A DNA stretch of 10,136 bases from the NCBI GenBank assembly GCA_905233965.1, contig CAJOFG010000140.1, forward strand, positions 2,570 to 12,705, read 5' to 3'. Shown one piece after another: positions 1,744 through 3,117 of this stretch (the stretch's first letter is position 1; each line of letters begins with the position of its first letter). A model generated the notes under the pieces. The model saw nothing but the letters and a program-made list of their open reading frames with translations, ran no database searches and had not been told where the DNA came from. Both the position numbers and the translations under genes were made by a program. This stretch comes from an uncultured Selenomonadaceae bacterium. GTDB lineage: Bacteria > Bacillota > Negativicutes > Selenomonadales > Selenomonadaceae.

Positions 1744-2919
1744 ATGGTAAGACAAAAACATTTATCTCATTCGGCAATGATAACGTTCATAACCTTTATG
1801 AATATGTTCATTCCGCTTTCAACCGATATGTATTTGCCGGCACTGCCGGAAATGGGAAAATATTTTTCGACGAACGAATTTTTGGTCGGCTTGACGCTGA
1901 CGGTATTTTTTTTCGTCTTTGCGGTAAGCATCGTTTTGTTCGGACCGTTGAGCGACAAATACGGAAGGAAACCGGTTTTGATTTTCGGCTCGGTGATTTA
2001 CACGGTCGCGTCGTTGAGTTGTGCGTTTTCGCCGGACATTTATTTCTTGATAGTCGGAAGATTTTTTCAAGCTCTGGGTTCCGGCGCGGTGATAACCGTT
2101 TCAACCGCGCTGATAAAAGATTCTTTTCGCGGAAAAATTTTGACGAAAATTTTGGCAATCACTCAAGCTTTGGGAGTCATCGCACCGATGGCGGCTCCTC
2201 TGGTCGGCGGCTTTTTGTTGCGATTCACTTCATGGCACGGAGCATTTTACGCGCTGGCTTTTTTGGGTGCGATAAATTTATTTCTCGCCTGCCTGTTGAC
2301 GGAAACGTTGCCGAAAGAAAAACGCTACGAAGGAAAAATTTTGCAATCTCTCTCGCTCCTCGTCGAACTTGGAAAGAAAACTCACTTCATGTTGATTTTG
2401 ATAATGTTCGCAATTTTGTCCGCGCCGTACATGGCATATTTAAGCGCGTCGTCGTTCGTCTACGTCGAATATTTTTCGCTGACGGCTCAGGAATACAGTT
2501 ATTTTTTCGCGGTGAACTCCGCCGCGTCGATAGCCGGTCCGATGATTTATTTGCGGCTGAAAACTTCGGTATCCGATCAAACTTTGATGAAGTTGACTTT
2601 TTTGACGGCGTTTACAAGCGGGTTGCTCGTCCTTGTGCCGGGACATTTGAATGAGTTTGCGTTTTTGTTTTCGTTCCTGCCGTTCACGGTTATCGGCGCG
2701 GTTGTTCGTCCGTTCGCGATGGAAGTTTTGCTGAACAAAGTTAAAGAAAATGCCGGTACCGCGTCCTCCATGATAAATTTTGTGCCGACACTGTTCGGAA
2801 GTTTCGGAATGATGCTGGGGACTTTGCCTTGGGGCGATTTTATTTTGGGATTGGGTTTAATAATGCTGGTTGCAACCGCGCTGTCATTTTCGATTTTTAA
2901 ATTCGTCGGGAAGATTTAG
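1744..2919 (+). CDS. Bcr/CflA-type MFS multidrug efflux transporter
   Basis: A 391-residue inner-membrane protein, the normal length for the 12-helix Bcr/CflA (DHA1) branch of the major facilitator superfamily; members export drugs or small metabolites by proton antiport. STDMYLPALPEM at 26-37, at the end of TM1, is a hallmark of this branch. Motif A is GPLSDKYGRKP (67-77) between TM2 and TM3. GRFFQALGSG (105-114) is the TM4 motif B region, and APMAAPLVGG (147-156) is the TM5 antiporter motif C region. AGTASSM (337-343) matches the Bcr-type AGTASS box in the C-half. The start is supported by GGGAGGA at 1728-1734. The stop TAG is made jointly by TA of the target site and the first G of the inserted element downstream. 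The gene is alone in its unit; the substrate cannot be inferred. Confidence 0.9.
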   Translation: MVRQKHLSHSAMITFITFMNMFIPLSTDMYLPALPEMGKYFSTNEFLVGLTLTVFFFVFAVSIVLFGPLSDKYGRKPVLIFGSVIYTVASLSCAFSPDIYFLIVGRFFQALGSGAVITVSTALIKDSFRGKILTKILAITQALGVIAPMAAPLVGGFLLRFTSWHGAFYALAFLGAINLFLACLLTETLPKEKRYEGKILQSLSLLVELGKKTHFMLILIMFAILSAPYMAYLSASSFVYVEYFSLTAQEYSYFFAVNSAASIAGPMIYLRLKTSVSDQTLMKLTFLTAFTSGLLVLVPGHLNEFAFLFSFLPFTVIGAVVRPFAMEVLLNKVKENAGTASSMINFVPTLFGSFGMMLGTLPWGDFILGLGLIMLVATALSFSIFKFVGKI

Positions 2920-3047
2920 GGCGTGTCGGTAAAGACGAACGCACGCCGATAACGGTTATTTTTCCGTCCGGACTTTGTCAAAATTTCTTGAAATATGTAC
3001 GATATTCCTGCGAAATTGTCGCACATTCTTACTTTACCAACACACCC
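2919..3047. mobile_element. 129-bp TIR element (MITE-like) inserted at the MFS stop codon
   Basis: The ends are 16-bp inverted repeats. The left arm is GGGCGTGTCGGTAAAG (2919-2934). The right arm (3032-3047), read in reverse complement, is GGGTGTGTTGGTAAAG, giving 14/16 identity with both differences being C/T transitions. TA flanks each side (2917-2918 and 3048-3049), as expected for a duplicated TA target. It is too short to encode a transposase. Removing the element plus one TA restores ATT TAA AAA, giving the transporter a normal TAA stop at the same codon. On the minus-strand transcript the two mismatches become G-U pairs, so the arms could form a continuous stem. Inside are GTCCGGAC and ATAAC-G-GTTAT mini-palindromes. 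This is consistent with a non-autonomous relative of a TA-targeting insertion sequence (IS630/Tc1 or some IS5-group families); which family is not resolved. Confidence 0.65.
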
Positions 3048-3080
3048 TAAAAAAATCTTTTGAGTACTGTTTTTGCAAAT

Positions 3081-3117
3081 AAAAAACCCGGCGCGAACAT
3101 CGCCGGGAATTTTATTT
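3081..3117. terminator. Bidirectional intrinsic terminator between MFS and MCP genes
   Basis: The stem is CCCGGCG (3087-3093) with CGCCGGG (3101-3107) and a 7-nt loop. On the minus strand it is followed by six U residues and then AUUU, an excellent terminator about 30 nt past the chemoreceptor stop codon. On the plus strand it is followed by AATTTTATTTT, so it can also stop transcription from the transporter. The inserted 129-bp element lies between the transporter and this hairpin. Confidence 0.85.

Follow-up and report, generated by a model that had tools for sequence, protein, structure and literature searches.

The window, a stretch of 10,136 nucleotides from an uncultured Selenomonadaceae bacterium, contains a transporter gene whose stop codon shares its last base with a short sequence bounded by inverted repeats. 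This arrangement raises two questions: whether the sequence is a mobile element that has landed on the stop codon or a conserved part of the locus, and what an insertion at this position means for the gene and for the element.

The insert at the end of the transporter gene

An intact Bcr/CflA-type MFS transporter gene occupies 1744–2919 on the plus strand (NCBIfam TIGR00710, 226 bits, cut-off 200.9) and ends with TAG at 2917–2919, the third base of the stop being the initial G of the element. The element copy, 129 bp long (2919–3047, plus strand), is bounded by the left terminal repeat GGGCGTGTCGGTAAAG (2919–2934, plus strand; L end) and the right arm CTTTACCAACACACCC (3032–3047), which reads GGGTGTGTTGGTAAAG inward on the minus strand (R end). 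The two 16-bp arms pair at 14 of 16 positions. TA lies on both sides, at 2917–2918 within the stop codon and at 3048–3049, and from the sequence and the flank statistics both are presumed to be the target duplication; the A following the right TA completes the former TAA. The preliminary description had reported this element, its arms, its flanks and its start at the third base of the MFS stop, and was confirmed to the base. Read by eye, deletion of the 129 bp together with one TA restores ATT-TAA-AAA and leaves the protein unaltered, as had been claimed. The transporter has also been parted from its terminator, in agreement with the earlier account: a terminator-like hairpin at 3087–3107, detected on both strands in the gap where the MFS and MCP genes converge, lies 167 bases from the MFS stop and would lie 36 bases away without the 131 inserted bases.

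The preliminary description had proposed a search for an empty site in orthologous genes. MFS matches at E <= 0.001 were present in all 66 genus genomes searched (host included), many of them distant, and the 30 best loci were fetched. Seven non-host orthologues (L073–L078 and L094) aligned through residue 391, and all seven end there with TAA and carry no element in the following bases (33 bases behind the stop for L076 and 11 for L078). The site reads ATT TAA in L074, L075, L077 and L078. The L076 orthologue has an internal TGA, and the remaining MFS loci have a different C-terminal tail that is uninformative for the insertion site. At 66–72% identity, the empty site is that of orthologues and not of the same species. 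By this comparison of sequences, the remake of TAA to TAG at the MFS gene is well supported.

One claim of the preliminary description failed. The two differences between the arms, both transitions, had been taken to suggest a moderate age. The same right arm occurs at the host loci L004, L013, L023, L028 and L029, and L013 carries the left arm of the window copy as well; because the same arms occur in other host copies, the differences were inherited with the element. The age claim is also contradicted by the 100% identity of the window copy to C74 over 99/99 bases and to C154 over 98/98 bases (BLAST, host assembly).

Copies, partner insertion sequences and target sites

The host assembly comprises 1.77 Mb in 223 contigs. 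A 133-bp query returned 59 BLAST pieces from it, own locus included, which supplied the further genomic copies that the preliminary description had suggested looking for. The end motif matched 59 times in the host at <=2 mismatches, against 2 matches for the reversed control pattern; with these two results the window element lies far beyond chance. Several host contigs break off inside the element, as they do at repeats in short-read assemblies. After removal of duplicates, 31 left ends and 26 right ends remained, which together define 38 insertion sites in the host; L102, a separate record from an uncultured Selenomonadaceae rumen assembly that also contains the inner motif, was excluded from these counts.

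The nine full-length host copies measure 157–167 bp, one copy of 246 bp has extra sequence, and the others are shorter or cut. The window copy is an internally deleted form of this ~165-bp family. It has lost 32 bp that copy C28, for example, retains; the gap falls between bases 101 and 102 of the query, after about 3017 in the window. Short, bounded by terminal inverted repeats, without a transposase gene and dispersed in many copies, the family has the properties of a MITE, and the reading of the window insert as a non-autonomous element with terminal inverted repeats is supported. That the insert is instead an immobile conserved intergenic sequence of this locus has practically no probability: the host holds 38 insertion sites, no element match appeared in the 24 congeners examined, so that among these genomes the host is the sole carrier, and the element is missing from all seven orthologous gene ends that could be compared.

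Some copies show further peculiarities. Miniatures of 34 bp, including the flanking dinucleotides, occur at three sites (C31, C132 and C168; L033 3015–3048, L035 2981–3014 and L179 10421–10454) with an identical inner junction; they may be mobile in their own right or have arisen repeatedly by deletion at microhomologies. At L025 (2958–3091) a second copy of the right end and 15 bp of its flank stands at a distance of 116 bp, a local duplication that spans the border of the element. An ORF at L028 (2045–2971; hydrolase-like by reading) enters the right end and stops at a TAA inside the terminal repeat, so that its last residues are element-derived. At L053 (position 517) a transporter-like ORF (again by reading) has a lone 16-bp end on its stop codon, followed by unrelated sequence; this end is perhaps a relic.

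The end motif was present at <=1 mismatch in 36/60 genus genomes, host included. The ends of the MITE match autonomous insertion sequences in related genomes and an IS fragment in the host. Two complete ISs were found in congeners, one at L054 (827–1701) with TA on both sides and one mismatch to the motif per end, the other at L067 (951–1828) with flanks TT and TA and one and three mismatches. Their transposases match NCBIfam transpos_IS5_3 with 252 and 236 bits (cut-off 110) and the Pfam families DUF4096 and DDE_Tnp_1. The preliminary description had suggested a search for a full IS with such ends, and these two answer it. Of the affiliations it had drawn from the TA flanks, IS630/Tc1 or the IS5 group, the second is supported, the two full partner ISs found being of the IS5 family; presumably they are "IS427-like". 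DDE_Tnp_4, considered as the partner family, was rejected, having no match in the host and not being the family of the full partner ISs.

No complete transposase of this type was found in the host assembly, which yielded a single fragment at a contig edge (L052). This fragment is 80% identical over 49 residues and is followed by an end, flanked by TG, that is identical to the left terminal repeat of the window copy over all 16 bp. Six other element-bearing genomes of the class gave no IS5_3 transposase over the cut-off (four no match, two weak partial matches), and in them the driver would be another enzyme or have been lost. Congeners G010, G013, G015, G017 and G054 contain other high-copy repeats with related ends (GGGTGTGTTGGTAAAT, GAGCGTGTTGGTAAAG and others), many of them at contig ends.

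Among the 19 host copies with both ends, TA is present on both sides in nine, on one side only in nine (with CA, TG or CG on the other) and on neither in one. Candidate pairs in congeners have TA on both sides in 29/40 cases, overlapping pairings included. T precedes TA at 41/57 host ends, against 43% in the background, and judging from these flanks the target is TTAA-like. Four of the copies with TA on one side have CG on the other. CG in place of TA beside one end was seen at L174, L179, L183, L187 and L191, each time after C (CCGGGG). A CG flank needs two changes and is commoner than single-base decay predicts, and plain duplication of TA predicts no missing TA. The idea that such CG, CA or TG flanks reflect a TA carried by the element without target duplication was dropped: the 9/9/1 split also fits independent decay at single ends, and the stop codon of the Era gene (L174) itself requires TA at the site.

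Stop codons and orientation of the copies

A simple codon-usage gene caller applied to 20 host stretches predicted 314 genes, with the stops TAA (156), TGA (126) and TAG (15). The flanking TA falls within the stop codon of a called gene at 13/38 host sites, the genes concerned including those for RecR, GTPase Era, SmpB, phosphoglycerate dehydrogenase, a U32 peptidase and a transaldolase-type protein. Among the non-coding sites in 313 kb, stop codons account for 9.6% of TA, 15.7% of TTAA and 15.3% of YTAR, and the probability of at least 13/38 is 3e-5, 0.004 and 0.003 under the respective nulls. As the target is TTAA-like, TTAA sites provide the appropriate null, and against it the host has a moderate excess on stop codons. 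The left end faces the gene at 11 of the 13 stop-codon sites and the right end at two (two-sided P 0.02). Either end can rebuild TAG, because both begin with G after TA. Of the TAG stops on the 20 host stretches, 7/15, most of these stretches having been chosen for bearing copies, were made by the element. A count by open frames alone gives a slightly different list: frames of 195 codons in L017 (right end) and 107 codons in L027 (left end) likewise enter the element but were left uncalled by the gene caller, and the frame at the right end in L001 (111 codons) was taken as spurious.

The excess was not seen in relatives. In congeners, 6/99 ends (a list that includes weak end matches) fall on the stop codon of an open frame with a minimum length of 70 codons, or seven with one that is offset by a base. 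In five other genomes of the class, with the minimum set at 80 codons, the same is true of 8/40 copies, five by the left end and three by the right. On these two counts, the idea that the family as such targets stop codons was rejected.

What the stop-codon sites mean in the host is evenly balanced. They may have no special meaning and result from the TTAA preference combined with purging of harmful insertions, with the orientation excess arising by chance, and to this account we assign an even probability. The TTAA null reduces the contrast to 34% against 15.7%, the P value for orientation is no lower than 0.02, the relatives have no clear excess, and the G that follows TA at both ends would let either end rebuild a TAG. 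However, purging has spared insertions close to start codons, five host ends lying 22–30 bp before called starts, and the stop-codon excess persists under all four nulls tried.

We consider it highly probable that the insert represents a palindromic MITE that is mobilised by an IS5-family (IS5_3 type) transposase at TTAA-like sites, remakes stop codons and forms an ERIC-like hairpin. To judge from the ends and flanks, such a transposase would recognise the 16-bp ends and move the element in trans, with insertion at TTAA-like sites and duplication of TA. A TAA stop preceded by T would be a suitable target site. The element's initial G after TA would then turn the stop into TAG with the protein unchanged, as the orthologues indicate for the MFS gene; the change of TAA to TAG without a change of protein follows from a TA target and an element that starts with G. 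The harmlessness of this remake may be why such insertions survive. On transcription, the ~165-bp foldback is predicted to give the gene an ERIC-like 3′-end structure, a long hairpin directly after the stop that might act on the mRNA; the window copy, with its loss of 32 bp, is predicted to fold less well. The orientation excess is weakly explained.

Fold, family and relation to known repeats

The full copy C28 was predicted to fold end to end, with z scores of -6.75 on the plus strand and -11.15 on the minus strand; the score of the window copy was -3.34 (plus strand). The minus strand, which reads from the right to the left end, was the more stable in 15/15 host copies, and the right-to-left strand folded better in 26/28 rows of a copy set that includes L303–L305. 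L305 is among the 26 although it was read off-site (its match is at 1235), and L303 and L304 folded better on the other strand.

Covariation was assessed in an alignment (A2) of 28 full-length copies, nine from the host and 19 others, taken from 30 fetched loci. Shorter and longer host copies, the window copy among them, were left out, as were L258, L259, L264, L268, L269, L271–L273, L276, L277 and L280, which were truncated, weak or duplicate. In a structure of 54 pairs, 97.3% of cells were paired, against 86.5% after shuffling; 27 pairs had changes on both sides (18.2 shuffled), and 166 cells were double changes (47.2 shuffled). None of 500 shuffles, which do not preserve relatedness, reached these three values, and with the partners slid by 1–3 columns 37–48% of cells paired. 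The inner helices (2–4, 6 and 7) co-vary too, beyond what transposase binding at the ends would need. Selection of one strand by G-U pairs was rejected as a candidate, since the excess changes with the choice of pairs (112 to 22, 17 to 50, or 15 to 13).

The family extends well beyond the host. One weak match, L009, came from another family of the class; it turned out to be a cousin of 165 bp that folds in the same way and shares 73% identity over 135 bases. A search with this cousin gave matches in 8/60 genomes, and six of them beside G028, all outside the host's own family, carry complete or almost complete copies; some of the copy sets overlap in part (for example, L255 is L284 and L262 is L344). 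Under stricter filters, the covariance model R1 matched 49/250 genomes drawn from the class, host included, which belong to 23/91 genera. Among genomes drawn from the phylum it matched 4/299, host included. In the window it matched 2917–3049 on the minus strand (54.4 bits, E 6.6e-13). Full R1 matches among those listed are mostly 157–168 bp long and the deleted host copies shorter. Weaker members of the family keep the core and have other ends (AAGGAAGCACTGATTAA, with TAGGGCGTGTTGATTAAATGA as an intermediate): the consensus sequences of the two end types are identical at 72/122 positions in the core and 15/40 in the ends, in an alignment fitted to the model. Plasmids gave a single partial match (52% covered) and phages none. 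Rfam 15 gave no match in the window and none at E <= 1 in six sources; in five further sources it gave two matches, neither at the element.

The element might instead be primarily a selected RNA: its transcripts would form hairpins at gene ends through which mRNAs are protected, cut or terminated, and its ends would serve only for its spread. The mostly constant length of the full-length copies read, the co-variation of the inner arms as well as the ends, the better fold of one strand in nearly all copies and a core more conserved than the ends are consistent with this account, which we nevertheless regard as rather unlikely. Co-variation in a palindrome can also come from correction of one arm by the other through template switching or gene conversion, and related sequences alone can exceed the shuffles. 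The strand preference is reversed in L303 and L304, the G-U excess on one strand varies with the pair set, and some model matches are longer (184–213 bp). With the left end at the gene, moreover, the mRNA bears the less stable strand.

Transposition of a palindromic MITE, a mechanism of known kind (MITE, IS5-type transposase, TTAA), explains the finding. What appears to be new is a class-wide, nearly constant-length, co-varying foldback family with diverged ends that is frequent on stop codons in the host. TAG is read by RF1 only. One could go further and imagine an old mobile RNA hairpin of the class, ~165 bp long with a conserved core and with ends re-fitted to different transposases, that seeds 3′-end structure by landing on TAA and leaving an RF1-only TAG, with one preferred orientation in the host: a self-spreading part of 3′-UTRs. 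This proposal is speculative, and we think it improbable as a whole. In any case, the Negativicutes gain an ERIC-like palindromic repeat together with a covariance model able to annotate it. A TA target and an end starting with G provide a simple route for a transposon into the last codon of a gene with the protein unharmed, and the family offers a way to test if the lasting pairing of the arms in foldback repeats has to do with RNA or with transposition.

Among the best matches in the open-licence literature, neither a described MITE of the Negativicutes nor a stop-codon-favouring family was found. IS5-family ISs (NCBIfam transpos_IS5_3) share with it near-identical ends and, in congeners, mostly TA flanks; the MITE differs in having no transposase gene, and inside the ends no likeness was seen by eye over the first bases.

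In kind, the element can be set beside three known repeats. ERIC is an imperfect palindrome over its whole length. In enterobacteria, ERIC (IRU, RU-1) is described as a 127-bp repeat, carried by E. coli, with TA ends, target duplication and a stable stem-loop transcript whose effect on upstream mRNA depends on orientation (PMC2229807). The Negativicutes element resembles ERIC, so described, being likewise a short repeat with a long stem-loop and TA ends, but is not a member: it measures ~165 bp, belongs to another host class, and its copy C28 has no blastn match at E 0.01 in an E. coli collection of 5,426 genomes. QMITE2 is reported at the 3′ end of enhC in Coxiella burnetii, where one strain has a stop codon just before the MITE and another has it after the MITE (PMC5896051), and is reported to have direct repeats of 7–9 bp (PMC10969869). 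It is likewise a MITE at a gene's 3′ end next to a stop codon; that account concerns one gene and 7–9 bp repeats, whereas the host element has TA flanks and sits exactly on stops at 13/38 sites. The RUP of Streptococcus pneumoniae is described as a 107-bp MITE with a TA target whose ends match those of the resident IS630-Spn1, its proposed mobiliser (PMC2229807). The Negativicutes element shares with RUP, so described, its nature as a MITE, the TA target and ends held in common with an IS; it differs in that its partner belongs to the IS5 family and that the family is spread over a class. By analogy, the family may work like the ERIC or RUP repeats.
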